From Morinoia aosen (lineage: Eukaryota > Arthropoda > Malacostraca > Amphipoda > Talitridae), in the NCBI GenBank assembly GCA_030386875.1, contig CM059566.1:37360068-37424067 (forward strand): 64,000 nucleotides of DNA. The letters run 5' to 3'. How positions within the stretch are numbered: position 1 is the first letter of the stretch; each line of letters begins with the position of its first letter. Position numbers and translations under genes: made by a program. Shown in pieces: positions 14,019-50,311 of this stretch. Under the pieces are notes generated by a model that ran no database searches, had not been told where the DNA came from, and was given only the letters and a program-made list of their open reading frames with translations.

Positions 14019-14456
14019 GACGTCGTCCTATGACTTCATGACGTTATATGACTTCATGACGTTCTATGACTTCGTGACGTTCTTTGACTTCAAGACGTTC
14101 TATGACTTTATGACGAACTATGACTTCATGACGTTCTATGACTTCATGACGTTTTATCACTTCTTAACGTTCTATGACTGCATGACGTTCTATAACTTTG
14201 ACGTTCTTTGACTTCATCACGTTCTCTGACTTCATCACATTCTTTTATTTTATGACGTTCTATGACTTCATGACGTTCTTTGACTTCAAGACGTTCAATG
14301 ACTTCATGACGTTCTTTGACTTCAAGACGTTCTATGATTTCATGACGTTCTTTGACTTCATGACGTTCTATGACTTCATGACGTTCTTTGACTTCATGAC
14401 GTTCTATGACTTCATGACGTTCTTTGACTTCATGACGTTCTATGACTTAATGACCA
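14019..14456 (+). repeat. 18-bp minisatellite with alternating 36-bp organisation
   Basis: About 24 copies of the 18-bp unit TATGACTTCATGACGTTC and close variants. From about 14,270 on, units beginning TATGAC and TTTGAC alternate, giving a 36-bp higher-order repeat. Every unit carries TGACGTT or a near variant. Because 18 is divisible by three, one plus-strand frame is open for over 100 codons (14,198-14,512) and would encode (MTFFDF / MTFYDF)n. I regard this as a consequence of the repeat, not a gene. Early units are more diverged than late ones, so expansion was most recent near the 3' end. Confidence 0.95.
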
Positions 14457-25990: not shown

Positions 25991-27217
25991 TAAAAATATC
26001 GCTATCAATACTCTTTCACGCTTTCACCGTTGTAAAATTGATTCTTAATAGAAATATAATCAGAGCAATTTTGCTAGCACTTTGACAGTTTAGTCCTGCT
26101 GCTGGGATTCATCCCATTTCAAGCTACATCTTCACTATTTTAGGAATATTGTTATTTGCTAGATTATCATATTAAGATATTAATATTGCTATTAAGCAAT
26201 ACCGAATGCAAAGGTAATTTGTGCATGAGGTTTTGTTGCGAGAAGCAAGAGAAAGAACAATGCGAGTTCGCGCATCTTTTCAAGGACTTCAAGAAACCTA
26301 AGCTTGTTTTGAGTCATTCCAGGGTGCGTTGGCATGTTGACCGCGTTTCGGCTGTTGTAAGGGGTAAGTAGCAGAATAGGGGAATCAAATTTAATGTTCG
26401 AATACACTTTTACCCTTCCTATGAAATGTAAAACATACAATTGCACGAGACATTTCACCTCATAGGATTACAGTTATTTCTTAAAGAGGTTGCGAAACAG
26501 ATGAAATGTCATTCATTTATACCGGTTCGTGAATGAGCAATTGACCGACTAGTACACACATGGTCCAATACTCGGGGAACGTGTTCAGCATCACCTGTTG
26601 CATGGAAATTTACATGAAATACAACACGCGATCCGAATCCACACGAAACGCTGATCAAAATCACAGCTCAGTTAGATTAGGAGTCAGGGCTATGGCATCA
26701 ATGCAAGTATCAGATGGAGCTAAAACAGCAAGAGTTGCAACTTAGATAGCAATATTCATTGCCGAGCAGCTCTGTTCTATGCAAATTAGAGCACCGGAGA
26801 AAGCTACAGCGGGATATTAATGCCCCGCGTTGCATCCAACGCAGACTTGGAATAACACATACAAATTACTCCCAGTAAGCTATACAGAGTCTGAGAGCGC
26901 TCATTATATCTATGCTTCACTGCTGTTCATAATGTGGATTGTAATTAAGCTAATGTGACTATCTCTTCACGTTTTGAGAGTCACGGACATTCTGATCAAA
27001 GCCGCCACAGCATCAGATTAGACTATGTCACCTGGACCTCTCGCTAATGCATTTATGAACGATTTCCTATTGTAAGAAGCAAGGCTTCGGAGATGATACG
27101 ATGATACAGACAAATTTGACCGTGGCATCGTGATATTGAAACGCAAGCTTTGATCAACTTTCAATATCAGCATGTCATTTTAAATTGTTTGAGTGATAGT
27201 TTTTAGGTACTTGTGGG
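25991..27217. other. Unassigned DNA around the candidate exon
   Basis: Apart from the exon candidate at 26,210-26,365, there is only unremarkable sequence. A 61-codon plus-strand frame at 26,560-26,745 is not recognised. Confidence 0.4.
26210..26365 (+). CDS. Candidate internal exon, unrecognised
   Basis: The plus-strand frame is open and reads CKGNLCMRFCCEKQEKEQ, then FAHLFKDFKKPKLVLSHSRV up to VSAVVRG. It ends at a strong splice donor, AAGGG followed by GTAAGTAG at about 26,366. A possible acceptor (CTTCACTATTTTAG) ends near 26,144. Charged-residue content and the cysteine cluster look more protein-like than neighbouring frames. A competing minus-strand frame (26,192-26,458) overlaps it. 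No family is recognised, and both exon boundaries are inferences. Confidence 0.22.
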
Positions 27218-27485
27218 TTGTCTGTCTCCACTTGTGAAGGGGGAAAAGTGGTTTTAGGGGAGAAAGGGAAAAATGTTGTCGTTTTATGAATATTGAATTG
27301 ATGTTCTGGACAAAATGAATAGATTCTTCGTGTGAAAAGGTATCCTTGTTGGCTTATGTTTATTTGTAATGCAACTTTTTACCTTCCATATGCATAAAAT
27401 GAATCTCTGGGACCTTCCTCTTCAGTTCTTGGATGGTCCCCGAGATTCATTTTGGCCTGAAACAAAACAAAAATTAAAAAAAATT
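27218..27485. repeat. Interspersed repeat C, copy 1 (uninterrupted)
   Basis: This copy aligns with 29,763-30,340. Shared words include GATTGATGTTCTGGACA/GAATTGATGTTCTGGACA, GTGA.AAGGTATCC, TTTGTAATGCAA, ATGAATCTCTGG and CAGTTCTTGGA. It contains a strong hairpin (27,397-27,418 pairing with 27,431-27,453, two mismatches) and is followed by an A-rich segment, so the right side may be the 3' end. At the position where copy 2 carries a Helitron, this copy reads TATGTTTATTTGTAATGC without a break, so it is the empty site. The class of repeat C is unknown; a noncoding end of a larger element is plausible. Confidence 0.8.
27397..27453. other. Conserved hairpin within repeat C
   Basis: The left arm AAAATGAATCTCTGGGACC and its continuation pair with GGATGGTCCCCGAGATTC and its continuation around a 12-nt loop. 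The equivalent region of copy 2 (about 30,260-30,315) also folds, but with differences at other positions. An RNA or single-stranded DNA structure may have been useful to the ancestral element. Confidence 0.6.
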
Positions 27486-29762
27486 TTAATTTTTTGACAG
27501 TTCCTTTCTCATTCTGATGTGGGGCACTACCTGATGCCAGAGTAAGTCTAATGATGGTGGTTATGATCACGGTAATATGCGTAGTAAAATGCTAACGTTA
27601 AAGGTTCAAAATATATCACAAAATACAGATCACTGCTCCTTCAATATCAAAAAGTAAAAAACCTTCTCCTGAGAAACAACCTCTCAGCCTGTAGAACTGC
27701 ACGCTTTGTAAAATGAAAAGAAATAGCTCACTCGGAACAAGAAATAACGACCATGGTTAAGCAGATTCAACCAACCCATGAAAACTCGACCCGAAGACTC
27801 GCCAGCGCCATAGCAGGCCATTGTTCAGGGTCTCGTCCTCAGGAGATAATTACGCCACACACTCAATTGAGCGGCCGCCATCAAGTTTCATAGACTTATT
27901 CTGAAATGGAATTTACTTCTAAACGCGGATATTCTTTGAGTAATTAATCGCTGCAGGGCAACTTGATATGTCCCTGCCCAAAATGTGAAAACAAGCTTTC
28001 TTTGTCACTTGACAGCGAACACTTAAAGGAGTTCTTATGAATATACTACCATCTTCATCCTATTGAAGAAGAAAATGTCAGAATTTTACATAGCGTTCGT
28101 ATTTGAGCCAACCACCCCTTGGCGAGTTCTGGTCACTATTTAAAAGAAAAAAAGACTAACAGGCTTTGCTGTAGGATAGTGACTTCTTTTTTTCTGTATA
28201 CAAATTGTTTTTTGATGATCATCAGTTCCTCACTGAGTTTTGATTCTCCAGTGACTTTACAATACAAATTCTTATGGTGAATTTTGAATATTATTGAATA
28301 ATTAAAAACAGCACTTGTTTGACATATGTGCACATTTGGAAACTTAATTTTCACCGTTTTTATGTGCATTTTATAGTCGATACATGAACTTGGTAAAGTT
28401 AGGTGGAATGAATGATTCACTTTCGTACTAATGTGGATGATAGACTATTTTAACAGTAAATGTATGTCCTAAAATATAATTAGTAAGTTCCGACAGCCAT
28501 CGTTACCATCTCTTATTTCGGATTTACCTACAAAACAAGATTTTTGATAGTAGAATCAACTTCAGAGTCAATCATTTGACTAACGCAATTCGGATAAGCC
28601 ATTTAGATAATTAACTAAGTATAGAAAGCAAGGAAATTATATTGTACAGAGCTGAGAGATAACAAAAAAGTTAAAAAAAATTGCAAAATTTATCGATTAT
28701 CGTATTAATTGCACAATGACAGAAATCCTAATTGTAAAACAATAAAAAAGTGAAAGCAAACGCAATCGTTGCGTCAACGTAATTTAAAAATAACACCAAG
28801 TTGATGTACGAAATTATCTGAAAAGAGAAATTTGACGTTCTTTATGTTCCGATTAAAGAGTTTACTTGACAAAAAAACTTCACAAATTTTTTAGTTAGCC
28901 CCATACGAAATTTGATCGTATTGAGGGACAAGAGTTTTTTATTATCTTACAGCTTAATTGTTATCTTACAACAACAGAGCTGTTTTTCAAGATAAGAGTA
29001 TTATTATAATTATCCCCGAAATGGTTGACAGGCAAATGATCCTCCGTTACACTCACATCAGAAAAATATTTCAACGCGAGTTAAGCAACATCAACGGCTG
29101 GTGAGCTCCATTTAGTTCGTAAAAATAGCTTTTATTCCTGGCACAAATTAAAAATTTGATCCTAGGTGTCGCTCCCTAGGATGAAATTTCAGTATACAGA
29201 GTATTTAGGGAGTTATTCCTTCTCTTCTTGATCAAAGAACAAACTTTCTATCTGACCTTCTCATCCTTCCGTTAATCAAACGTCTGCTAGTCTTACTAAG
29301 AGCCTTTGTCTGTAAGCAGGCAAGTTGTGCCGAGCTACAAGGAACTCCAGGAAAACGATACTACAGGGATGATCAGGGTCTTTGGTTACGTTTGAAATTA
29401 CTTGTGATTTCGCTGTCAGGAAAACATGCGCTTTTTCTCAAGTCATATGCGTTAAAAAGTCAAACTAAGAAGTGGAGTTGATTGGTTAAACATATATTAA
29501 GTAAAGGAAGGAGTTTCACCGAAGGACCATGCATTACTGATTAATTATAAAGTCTGGAGTATTCAATTTATTAACAAGACATATTCGATCTGTTATTCCT
29601 GTTATATCTTTGAATAATACTTTCGTTTGTAAATTATTTTTGCGATCCATCACTACTAAACATTTGCATCAACAACGCTGAATTTCCAAATATGTCCCAG
29701 GAATATGAACGCATTCATTTATACGAATCAAATTTTTACGATCGAAGTATCATTGTATTGGG
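27486..29762. other. AT-rich DNA without recognised features
   Basis: No supported gene. A minus-strand frame of 94 codons (28,136-28,420) is AT-driven and unrecognised. Confidence 0.45.
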
Positions 29763-30340
29763 TAGTTGTCATCACTTTTTAAGGGGAAAAGTGTTTTTAC
29801 GGAAAAAAGTGAAAAATGTAATTGTTTTATGAACATTGGATTGATGTTCTGGACAGTATGGATAGATTTTTCATGTGAGAAGGTATCCCTTTTGTTTTAT
29901 GTTTACTATTCCACCCCCCTTTATTTGAAATAGGAAAGAAGACGAAATGAAATAAAGGCCGTAAGAAATGAAAAATTAAACCTTTCGAGAGTTGATGAGG
30001 CCGAGTGCACACGGCCCGTTAAAAATGAAAAATAATGTGGGAAAAATCACATGACACACGTTCCTACTTCCAAAGAATTCACGTGATATTCATTCCCACT
30101 TAAATCTGATGGATTAATGCGTTGGAAATTGTGGAGTTGATGTAGTTTGTATCACAGATACGCTCATCACACACTGCAGGCTGGCTTTGGAAAGACAGAC
30201 ACCGCTCTTATTATAATATAGATTTGTAATGCAATTTATTTACTTTCCATATAAATATAATGAATCTCTGGCACCTTCCCTTCAGTTCTTGGAAGGTCCC
30301 TGAGATTTATGTTAGCTTGAAGCAGAACAGAAATTGAAAA
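29763..30340. repeat. Interspersed repeat C, copy 2, split by a Helitron
   Basis: The two halves, 29,763-29,905 and 30,223-30,340, together match copy 1 at 27,218-27,485. Everything between them is the inserted Helitron. The sequence resumes after the insertion without loss or duplication of bases, so the older repeat was cut cleanly between an A and a T. The hairpin near 30,260-30,315 is retained. Confidence 0.82.
29906..30222 (-). mobile_element. Non-autonomous Helitron, copy 1 (317 bp)
   Basis: Read on the minus strand, the element starts TCTATATTATAATAAGAGC and ends with a short hairpin (TATTTCAAATA, plus coordinates 29,922-29,932), then a G-rich stretch and ATAG, followed by a host T. 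Helitrons start with TC, end with a hairpin shortly before CTRR, insert between A and T, and make no target duplication. All of these hold here except one change in the terminal CTAG. Copy 1 of repeat C supplies the empty site CAAA/TAAAC, which fixes both ends to the base. The interior shows no coding capacity, so it would depend on an autonomous Helitron's Rep/helicase. A GTCTGTCTTTCC motif near the 5' end resembles many insect Helitron starts, from memory. Confidence 0.88.
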
Positions 30341-31727
30341 TAATAGAAATTAATAATAATTTAATTAACCTAACTTAATCTAACCTTCACATCATAAGAA
30401 AACCATAAATTAAAAATGGTGACAGATAACCCACTAGTGCCATACTTTGTAAAATTTCCACTCGGCTTTCTGACACTTTTTTTATTTGTCAGCAAAGTCA
30501 ATTAACTTTTTGAGAGTCCATTGAAATAATTAAAATACACACTGAAGAATACATACAAACATTCCATTTATTTCAGAATCTTTGTATTGTATAGAAAAAC
30601 ATATTCACTCATGTATGAAGCCCTATAAAAAATGCTGATGTGCCCCGAAAGGGGCAAGATGTGATGTGAATTACCTAACAGGTAAGAGGGAGAAGTCGTG
30701 GATGGTTGTTCAAGCACGAGCTAACTTTTCTGTCAAATTAGGACGCAATATAGAGCGTTGAGAAATAATTAGTATTTTATATTTAATAATTTAATAAAAA
30801 AATTTACACTTATTATTAATACAACCTGTTTACTTCCCAAGTTCATAACGGCATAATCGCCCCTGGAGATCGCCCCAATGCTGTACAGGAAGGTAAGACA
30901 ACCAGGAAATACCTACCATAAGATTGAGCTCAGATTCGCCAAGCTTGTGCTACAAAATATAGGTTTTAAAGTAGTGCCCTCTACACACATTTTCGTTAAC
31001 AGGAAAACGATCACAGTTTTTGCGCAAAAACGTAAATGAATTATGTGTGTGTGCCAAAACTGCGAGGGTAAGAAGCAAAGAATCTCTGCAATAGCTTGTG
31101 GAAGTATTCCGGCGTTTCACGAAAATTAACGCAATACGAATGTAATACTGTGAAAGCTCGTATAATTTAGATTATTTTTCTTATATTGAAAAGCAGTACT
31201 GTTTACTTACAAAATAAAATAGACGTACGCTCGAAAAACATTTCTCCTGCTTACAGCACCATTGCTTTAAAGTAACATTTAACTTCCTCACAATTGCTTT
31301 TCGCTGGATGACGAGACTTCTGCTCTTCAAAAGAAATAGTATTTTAAATTTTTGTCACTGTGCATTGCAACTAAAGTAAATAAATTTTTCTGACGATCAT
31401 GGTGATTTTTTTTCATACCAAGTTGTCATTCTGCCGTTACACAAGGTCATTTTCTATTCTTTTTGCACTGACAATTACAGCAGCACTTCTCCATCCAAGC
31501 TCCTACATCGAGTCATTTTGATGCCAAACTTGTGGCCAAAAATGTTTGATTGTTGGTGTATATTTCAGGTTGCTTGCGTCTAAAGCGCTGCAAATTGCAA
31601 AAGTTTAGAGTGACAGCGCACTTGCAGCCGTGAGAATGCCGCCAGCTCAGTTGCGCTCTCACTTCCCCAGCGCCGCACTCAGTTAATGTACCTCCATTCT
31701 GGCGCTCACGTGTTGCGGTGTCCGAAT
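30341..31727. other. Noncoding stretch with a perfect small hairpin
   Basis: At 30,642-30,655 the sequence GCCCCGAAAGGGGC forms a five-base-pair stem with a GAAA tetraloop. A strong donor-like site (CAGGAAG then GTAAGACA, near 30,891) follows a short open segment reading HNGIIAPGDRPNAVQE. It could be a very small exon, but nothing links it to others. The rest is unremarkable. Confidence 0.35.
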
Positions 31728-46268: not shown

Positions 46269-46457
46269 CTAGTCCACCCTCCCTCATTTGAAATGAGAAA
46301 GAAGAAGAAATAAAAGAAAGGCTGTAAAACAAAAAAAATCAATCTCTCGAAAGTTGACGCGGCCGAGGGCACACGGCCCGGATCACAGATACGCTCATCA
46401 CACACTTTTGGCCGGCTTCGGACAGACGGACGGACGCGGCTCTTAATATAGTAAAGA
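46269..46457 (-). mobile_element. Non-autonomous Helitron, copy 2 (189 bp)
   Basis: This is a shorter relative of the element at 29,906-30,222. On the minus strand it starts TCTTTACTATATTAAGAGCC, with an A before it, and ends with a perfect 7-bp-stem hairpin (CTCATTTCAAATGAG, plus 46,283-46,297), ten bases, CTAG and then T. Both flanks share blocks with copy 1, including CACACGGCCCG and ATCACAGATACGCTCATCACA. The 132 bp found in copy 1 between these blocks (30,019-30,150) are absent. The ends are the canonical TC and CTAG with A/T target bases and no duplication. It is noncoding. Confidence 0.88.
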
Positions 46458-48490: not shown

Positions 48491-49859
48491 GTTAGATCAG
48501 AATACTATTGCTAATCTTTTATGATTGACACTCTCGATGAGTGTACAATGTTTTAGATACACATCAATAATATTCCCTAGAATCAACGTTCATTTTTACA
48601 TGTTATGTTGCACCTCGAATGATTTACTTCAGACGCGATTTTAATCCTACCATAGTTTCGGAGTGAAACATATGGTGTTTACAAAACTGTATACTCTCCA
48701 ATACAGTTTATTGGGCTCTATAGTTGTGCGCATGGAGACAAGGTTATCAATAGTTCGAAGATGTGGGCAATCATTTTTAATCGAATATTGGTTTGAGGTA
48801 AAATAAAGTGAGTTTGTGCTTGTTGAGCGGACGACTACACGTTACGCTCACAAGTATGCATGCACATATGTTCAAAAGTATACTCTAGCAGGTGCAGAGT
48901 TTTCACTCAAAATAATGAGGCTGTCTGATGTTATCGTAATACCAGAGCTTCAGATTGCATTTACTCTTAACGCAATTGATACTCATTAGCATTTTCTACT
49001 CCAATTAACGACAAAATTTTAACATTCTGATCTCAATACGATTAAACTGATTTTCAAAATACAACTCAAATTTAACCGCAATTGTAGGAATCAGTTTTGA
49101 AAATCACAAATATGAACCGAATCTTGCCTTCGTTGAGCTTTTATTCAGTATTTATAAAAATTGAGTTTACTTCTATAGGTCGATAAGCAGTATTTTCAAA
49201 ATTCCCTCCGTGGATACCGGCAGCTCACATCGTGACCAACGTGTTAAACTATTTGAAGGACGCTTATTTGTGAACGCACGGTTTGAAAAAGTCCATCAAT
49301 GGTGCCCGATAAATAGCACTTATGAATCATTAAGCGTATTAAAATATCACGAAAGCAACATGGGAAGTCCTAAATCTCCCGCAAATCCGCAGTTCAAGTC
49401 ATCAACACAACGCCGCACCGCGCCAGCCACGGGAAAGTTCTGTCATAGTGCAGTTTGCAGGCCGCTGAGGCAATCGTTAAAGTACTGCGGCGTTTGCCTT
49501 TTTTGAGGCTCACTAAAAACGGAAGGAACAATTGTTGTGGGGCTAAGGGTCTGCTTCGAGCGTCTGAGACTCCGTTGTTGCCTGCATTTTGGGACGAGTT
49601 TTGGTTTGTCCTTGTTATTTCCCCTCGCACTGGAATTTATCACTTCAACTTAGGCAACAGGGTTTAAAATCGAAAAAATACTCAAAAGAACCACAATAAT
49701 GATAACCTCCATGGTAGTTTTGGCCCTACAGGCACATGTTCATTACTCGTTAATTTGAACGAACCAAAGCCTAACTCCCTTAATCCATCCTATACTTACC
49801 TACGAGTAACTTAACCTTCAGTCATCTGCTGGGTTGCAACATTAAACAAACCATGAAAA
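48491..49859. other. Noncoding stretch with a CG-containing island
   Basis: The segment 49,200-49,640 is GC-richer and has overlapping open frames on both strands (plus 49,210-49,506; minus 49,394-49,630 and 49,443-49,643). No frame resembles a known protein and no strand can be chosen. Confidence 0.35.
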
Positions 49860-50311
49860 ATCGCTATCTTGCACACGAATCGCTGTCTTGCACACAAATC
49901 GTTATCTTGCACACGAATCGCTATCTTGCACACGAATCGCTATCTTGCACACGAATCGCTATCTTGCACACGAATCGCTATCTTGCACACGAATCGCTGT
50001 CTTGCACACAAATCGCTATCTTGCACACGAATCGCTATCTTGCTCACGAATCGCTATCTTGCACACGAATCGCTTTCTTGCACACGAATCGCTATCTTGC
50101 ACACGAATCGCTATCTTGCACACGAATCGCTATCTTGCACACGAATTGCTATCTTGCACACGAATCGCTATCTTGCACACGAATCGCTATCTTGCACACG
50201 AATCGCTATCTTGCACACGAATCGCTATCTTGCACACGAATTGCTATCTTGCACACGAATCGCTATCTTGCACACGAATTGCTATCTTGTACTCGAATTG
50301 CTATCTTGCAC
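49860..50311 (+). repeat. 19-bp minisatellite open in all three forward frames
   Basis: About 24 copies of CTATCTTGCACACGAATCG. Most units are identical; variants such as CTGTCTTGCACACAAATCG appear at about 49,882 and again at about 49,997, showing that blocks of several units were copied together. Because 19 is not divisible by three, three units (57 bp) encode a 19-residue repeat, HTNRYLAHESLSCTRIAIL. The same peptide repeat appears in every forward frame, with no stop in any of them. The long frames at 49,853-50,419, 49,869-50,324 and 49,888-50,331 are therefore by-products of the array. The last units (TTGTACTCGAATTG) are diverged. Confidence 0.97.

Follow-up and report, generated by a model that had tools for sequence, protein, structure and literature searches.

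One stretch of DNA from the amphipod Morinoia aosen raises the question of how 317 bp came to lie inside one of two neighbouring copies of the same repeat. The window, by which is meant the whole stretch of 64,000 nucleotides that was analysed, had been the subject of an earlier note made from the letters alone, in which the 317 bp were taken for a Helitron and the neighbouring copy of the repeat (repeat C) for its empty site. It is almost certain that the 317 bp are a canonical non-autonomous Helitron insertion in repeat C (5'-TC, 3'-CTAG, target A/T, with a slash marking a border here and below), one of thousands of copies. The insertion itself is an ordinary one and its mechanism is already published.

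The filled and the empty site

The features that the comparison of the two repeat copies depends on are the following.

27206..27490, no strand assigned: repeat C, uninterrupted copy, the natural empty site; a terminal repeat could be found on one side only
~29751..30441, no strand assigned: repeat C, interrupted copy, an inverted-repeat element holding the Helitron; the left end is degenerate and that boundary approximate
29906..30222, minus strand: non-autonomous Helitron copy, 317 bp, TC...ATAG, sitting between A and T of repeat C
30205..30222, minus strand: 5' terminal motif TCTATATTATAATAAGAG, commoner form TCTATACTATAATAAGAG
29906..29929, minus strand: 3' terminal motif ending ATAG, commoner form TTCAAATAAAGGGGGGTGGACTAG

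Repeat finding places two copies of repeat C (~280 bp) in the window, ~2.5 kb apart, with the halves of the second copy 317 bp farther apart than those of the first. The interrupted copy matches the uninterrupted one at 82% over 29759-29905 and at 85% over 30222-30344, with the 317 bp between these two stretches. Read on the minus strand, the empty site is ...TTACAAA/TAAACATA... (the uninterrupted copy having TTACAAATAAACATA), and the filled site reads TTACAAA, then the 317 bp TCTATATT...GGAATAG, then TAAACATA, so that between the two no base is gained by duplication and none is missing. That there are two copies, one of them split at the critical place by 317 bp, is thus borne out by direct reading as well as by repeat finding, and the comparison agrees with the earlier note that the insert starts with TC and lies exactly between A and T without duplication. 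The same note held that the termini were fixed to the base; the pair is indeed clean, but a slide of one base remains because insert and target both start with T, and the pair alone fits either A/TC...ATAG/T or AT/C...ATAGT/A. Helitron biochemistry favours the first of these.

The insertion point can also be followed outside the window, with all 30 uninterrupted repeat C loci (29 others and the window copy) aligning across it without a break and 25 of the 30 having A/T there; these loci were retrieved with an uninterrupted query, hence they illustrate the empty state and give no true frequency, and some may be segmental duplicates.

Repeat C is a mobile element in its own right, present in many copies. 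When 29 further genomic copies were aligned with their flanks, it was found to have 28-bp terminal inverted repeats (GGTACTTGTGGGTTATCTGTCACCACTT; ends GGTACTTGTGGGTT...) and a strong inner hairpin, with a length of 358-387 bp in the 26 copies that have recognisable ends on both sides. The extent first given for the uninterrupted copy, 27,218-27,485, was therefore too short; this copy starts at 27206. The flanks of repeat C match one another at 8 bases in 67% against 33% when shuffled (z 9.0), and at other lengths from 2 to 12 z is at most 2.3; both values come from 25 of the 26 two-ended copies, L040 being omitted as its left end is out of register. As the match is specific to 8 bases, repeat C makes 8-bp target duplications.

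The window has repeats of another kind as well, with tandem arrays at 49859-50311 (19-bp unit) and 14024-14454 (18-bp unit), each of ~24 copies and each overlapping repetitive open frames.

Copies, ends and target across the genome

The genome searched comprises 1.99 Gb in 29 contigs. It has 15,492 matches to (TTAGG)6, a figure in which overlapping matches of one array are counted more than once, and an abundance of (TTAGG)n is in keeping with an arthropod. The 317-bp insert is found nearly full length at 39 other places with 86-90% identity, among the best 40 of 2,935 candidates that were scored, and the aligned ends give the common family form TCTATACTATAATAAGAG...TTATTTCAAATAAAGGGGGGTGGACTAG. 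The exact 18-mer of the 5' end, TCTATACTATAATAAGAG, occurs 2,827 times, a count that includes elements irrespective of how they terminate on the 3' side, and the exact 24-mer of the 3' end, TTCAAATAAAGGGGGGTGGACTAG, occurs 728 times, with the reversed-pattern control giving 0 in each case. The earlier note had asked whether other copies also lie between A and T, and they do: the exact 5' end is preceded by A in 2,527 of the 2,827 cases (~805 expected from base composition) and the exact 3' end is followed by T in 705 of the 728 (~214 expected). The two ends also go together, with the window type of 3' end found downstream of the matched 5' end in 27 of 30 loci (L061-L090), L063, L080 and L081 being those without it.

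Copies with two ends were collected by a script from the loci and the window, which gave 59, of which 48 have unique flanks; these are not every copy in the loci, as the script missed a second window copy that was found by BLAST.

46269-46457, minus strand: second, shorter family copy, 189 bp, TC...CTAG between A and T (BLAST)

Within the 48 copies with unique flanks, a TC start is found in 42, a CTRR end in 38 and a CTAG end in 36, while ATAG ends only 2, the window copy among them. With CTAG being usual in the family, the ATAG of the window copy is a decayed CTAG. The flanks of the 33 copies that have both TC and CTRR are A/T in 27, G/T in 3 and other in 3, and A is also frequent at position -2 (28 of these 33). 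The earlier note had regarded target duplications in other copies as telling against a Helitron; none was found in the 33 copies, where the flanks match at 1-2 bases in 2 and at 3-6 bases in 0. A second pair of filled and empty sites gives the same picture, in that L068 has a copy of 197 bp, and its flanks when joined align to L062 free of gaps with 116 of 120 bases the same, again with A/T and again without duplication.

Two further observations concern the structure of the copies and their surroundings. Directly after the 5' terminal motif there is a GTCY-like tetranucleotide run that differs in length among copies (L001-L030, L061-L090). The copies L004 and L007 lie on C9, ~138 kb apart and on opposite strands, and have a common 5' flank and different 3' flanks, as if a rearrangement had broken at the 3' end of the element.

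The one part of the proposed structure that fares less well is the hairpin.

29922..29932, minus strand: weak palindrome of A and T, candidate 3' hairpin, upstream of the 3' end; its folding is no better than shuffles in the window copy

The insert had been described as ending in a hairpin plus ATAG, and the ATAG is present, but the hairpin is weak and in the window copy is unsupported by folding. The family-type 3' end has the palindrome TTATTT-C-AAATAA (6+6) 11 nt before CTAG, which is equalled by 41 of 2,000 mononucleotide shuffles; the arms in the window copy are 5+5 bases only, equalled by 227 of 2,000. The stability of folding has no excess in the last 40 nt of the window copy (z 0.04), with z of -0.45 for the family-type 3' end and -0.93 for the whole 317-bp element.

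The Rep- and helicase-coding relative

A family of short non-autonomous elements leads to the search for a relative with Rep and helicase, which the earlier note had suggested should share the ends. The Helitron_like_N profile has at least 150 matches above the cut-off (150 of 289 candidates scored), and one such Rep match is preceded, 1,460 bp upstream, by an exact family 5' end. From that 5' end this element, L091, runs for 5,295 bp to a CTAG, itself between A and T, and contains a Helitron_like_N domain (198 bits) and a PIF1 helicase domain (226 bits). The first of its frame pieces matches Helraiser (7lcc) with an E of 2e-147 across most of its 839 residues, and the alignment takes in both HUH histidines. 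The window copy and L091 agree over ~100 bp at their 5' ends, and in the 189-bp window copy the first ~76 bases are 94% identical to this RepHel-coding relative. The association is not limited to one place: no fewer than 20 of 26 places that have the L091 leader are followed within 20 kb by a Rep match in the same orientation, several of these being segmental duplicates; the comparison covered 93 of the 150 Rep rows and 26 of the 84 leader rows (query start 1-3), which makes 20 of 26 a lower bound.

L091 has a Cys at the position of the second catalytic tyrosine of Helraiser (Y731), and its reading frame is interrupted by in-frame stops, both of which suggest that this copy is presumably dead and hence not itself a working source. 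In Helraiser the change Y731F is described as abolishing cleavage (PMC4778049).

The sharing of ends was thus confirmed for the 5' end, but the 3' end of the relative differs. The 3' end of L091, ATAAACTTACGGGCATGTACTAG, has 5 exact occurrences only, and 3' end regions of this type lie downstream of Rep matches at C21:106.1M (~8 kb) and at C4:47.57M and C5:57.6M (~13 kb), with a mutated form at C21:93.14M. No RepHel copy with the 3' end of the window family (...GGGGGGTGGACTAG) was found, as all 5 RepHel loci that could be judged carry another end, and an exact window-family 3' end lies within 15 kb of a Rep match in 0 of 14 cases in the stretch compared (the comparison took the 25 nearest of 100 listed 3'-end places). 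A RepHel source with that 3' end may lie elsewhere. Two candidates for such a copy were rejected: L093, which lies 1.3 kb past a Rep match from a different group, did not show that end, and L094 carries the other type of 3' end, with CAAG as its last four bases. In the C21:106.1M copy the Rep match is followed, ahead of the 3' end, by a segment (L092) whose translation resembles reverse-transcriptase sequence when judged by eye only.

What the abundant short family has in common with the RepHel lineage is the 5' end and not the 3' end, and it would appear that the 3' end has been replaced relative to the RepHel-coding lineage. A common 5' end with divergent 3' ends is consistent with what is published for two other systems, as Helraiser is described as requiring its left end, with the right end able to be bypassed and new 3' ends formed (PMC4778049), and the insect Hel1 Helitrons as having common 5' ends and diverging 3' ends (PMC6544945). 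Because exemplars with divergent 3' ends are grouped by their 5' end in the account of Hel1 (PMC6544945), the mismatch at the 3' end is not counted here as defining for a non-autonomous copy.

The window copy was probably mobilised in trans by the RepHel transposase of the relative that shares its 5' end. The transposase would nick at the 5' TC, rolling-circle copying of the kind suggested by published Helraiser work would follow and would stop near the 3' hairpin and CTAG, and one strand would be joined between A and T with no duplication left behind. The landing place would then have been one copy of the inverted-repeat transposon repeat C, with its empty copy 2.5 kb off.

The relative also bears on what else the insert might be. 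The T common to insert and target makes a 1-bp duplication formally possible, and along with the weak hairpin this would allow an element of the cut-and-paste or MITE type, which either duplicates 1 bp (T) or has T/A as its target. This is very improbable, as direct reading of the insert ends (TCTATACT vs CTAGTCCA) finds no terminal inverted repeats, and the same 5' end opens elements that code for a Helitron Rep and a PIF1-type helicase.

Helentrons include small rolling-circle elements that are non-autonomous and carry repeats in their cores, and the GTCY run after the 5' end could be a repeat of this sort, so that the element might belong with the Helentron-type (Helitron2) relatives instead of the canonical Helitrons. 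The A/T target and the TC...CTAG ends are canonical however, the Rep piece of the relative follows Helraiser over the greater part of its length, and Rep is the only nuclease domain reported for the three L091 frame pieces scanned, which leaves a Helentron highly unlikely. That repeat C originally contained the 317 bp, which the uninterrupted copy then lost by deletion, would fit the presence of filled and empty states in one window, but is extremely unlikely given that the segment, which the earlier note would have expected in most repeat C copies if this were so, is missing in 29 of the 29 others (retrieved with the uninterrupted query) and that the family recurs at 39 further scored places, where the ends stay the same and the flanks are of many different kinds.

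Carriage by viruses was also considered and rejected, as viral contigs contain the 18-base 5' end at a single place (L095), where the sequence beyond it is unlike the element and the match is put down to chance; no relatives of the Rep protein were found in viral contigs.

Head-to-tail junctions and known systems

Copies of the family are not always alone. The exact junction GGACTAG/TCTATACTATAATAAGAG, in which the 3' end of one copy abuts the 5' end of the next, occurs 106 times in the genome. Of all exact 5' ends ~4% lie in such a junction, and of the 300 without a preceding A ~1/3 do. Random insertion at AT would give less than 1 junction in each of six settings, with the observed number more than 100 times greater. 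Triple arrays also occur, as 7 pairs among the 100 junctions listed have a spacing of 219-228 bp. The 106 junctions are not a count of events, as some look copied by segmental duplication.

How such arrays arise is discussed in work on adjacent Helitrons, with both concatemers and secondary insertion at an A/T made of a host A and the first T of the element put forward (PMC2267711), and tandem Helitron arrays in plants and bats are also cited (PMC5876387). At the two tandem loci compared the paired units are not near-identical, differing by 10 mismatches at L062 and by 14 together with large gaps at L083, and the units of L062 differ from those of L083 by 11-20 mismatches. The comparison of units leans towards separate insertions at these two loci rather than concatemers, although the pairs may be old concatemers that have since diverged. 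A more specific idea, which is possible but rather doubtful, is that resident copies are preferred landing sites for new ones: the A/TC at the 5' border would be both the cut site of the transposase itself and a canonical AT target, and later copies would be aimed there. Such a preference would account for the 106 CTAG/TC junctions.

Several known systems resemble this family in the parts of their descriptions drawn on here. Helraiser/Helibat1 of the bat Myotis (PMC4778049) is alike in its 5'-TC, CTAG-3', A/T target, palindrome near the 3' end and RepHel, and also has de novo 3' ends and abutting copies; the present family differs from it in sequence and host, in its weak A- and T-only palindrome and in having a RepHel relative with another 3' end. 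By description only, Hel1 of 27 insect genomes (PMC6544945) is similar in its many short exemplars (from 162 bp), with copy numbers from the hundreds into the thousands in many species, in conserved 5' ends with divergent 3' ends that define subfamilies, and in A/T insertion without duplication. Likened equally by description only, BmHel-2/MITE01 of Lepidoptera (PMC4344730) is a non-autonomous Helitron of ~250 bp with TC...CTAG, flanking A and T and internal tandem repeats. The terminal sequence TCTATACTA has a literature match in maize, where Helitrons are given as beginning TCTATACTAT or TCTATACTAC (PMC10095026). The adjacent Helitrons of maize and bat (PMC2267711) share the CTAG/TC junctions and a G/T instead of A/T neighbour, with one maize case described and several bat cases cited in the portion of that paper used here, compared with 106 exact junctions in the one genome of M. 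aosen.

A non-autonomous Helitron insertion could thus be recognised in a single raw window by means of a paralogous empty site and then confirmed across the genome. CTAG/TC junctions are as a kind already published, and what M. aosen offers is ~100 natural examples of them in one genome, a set that could help to choose between concatemer integration and targeted secondary insertion.
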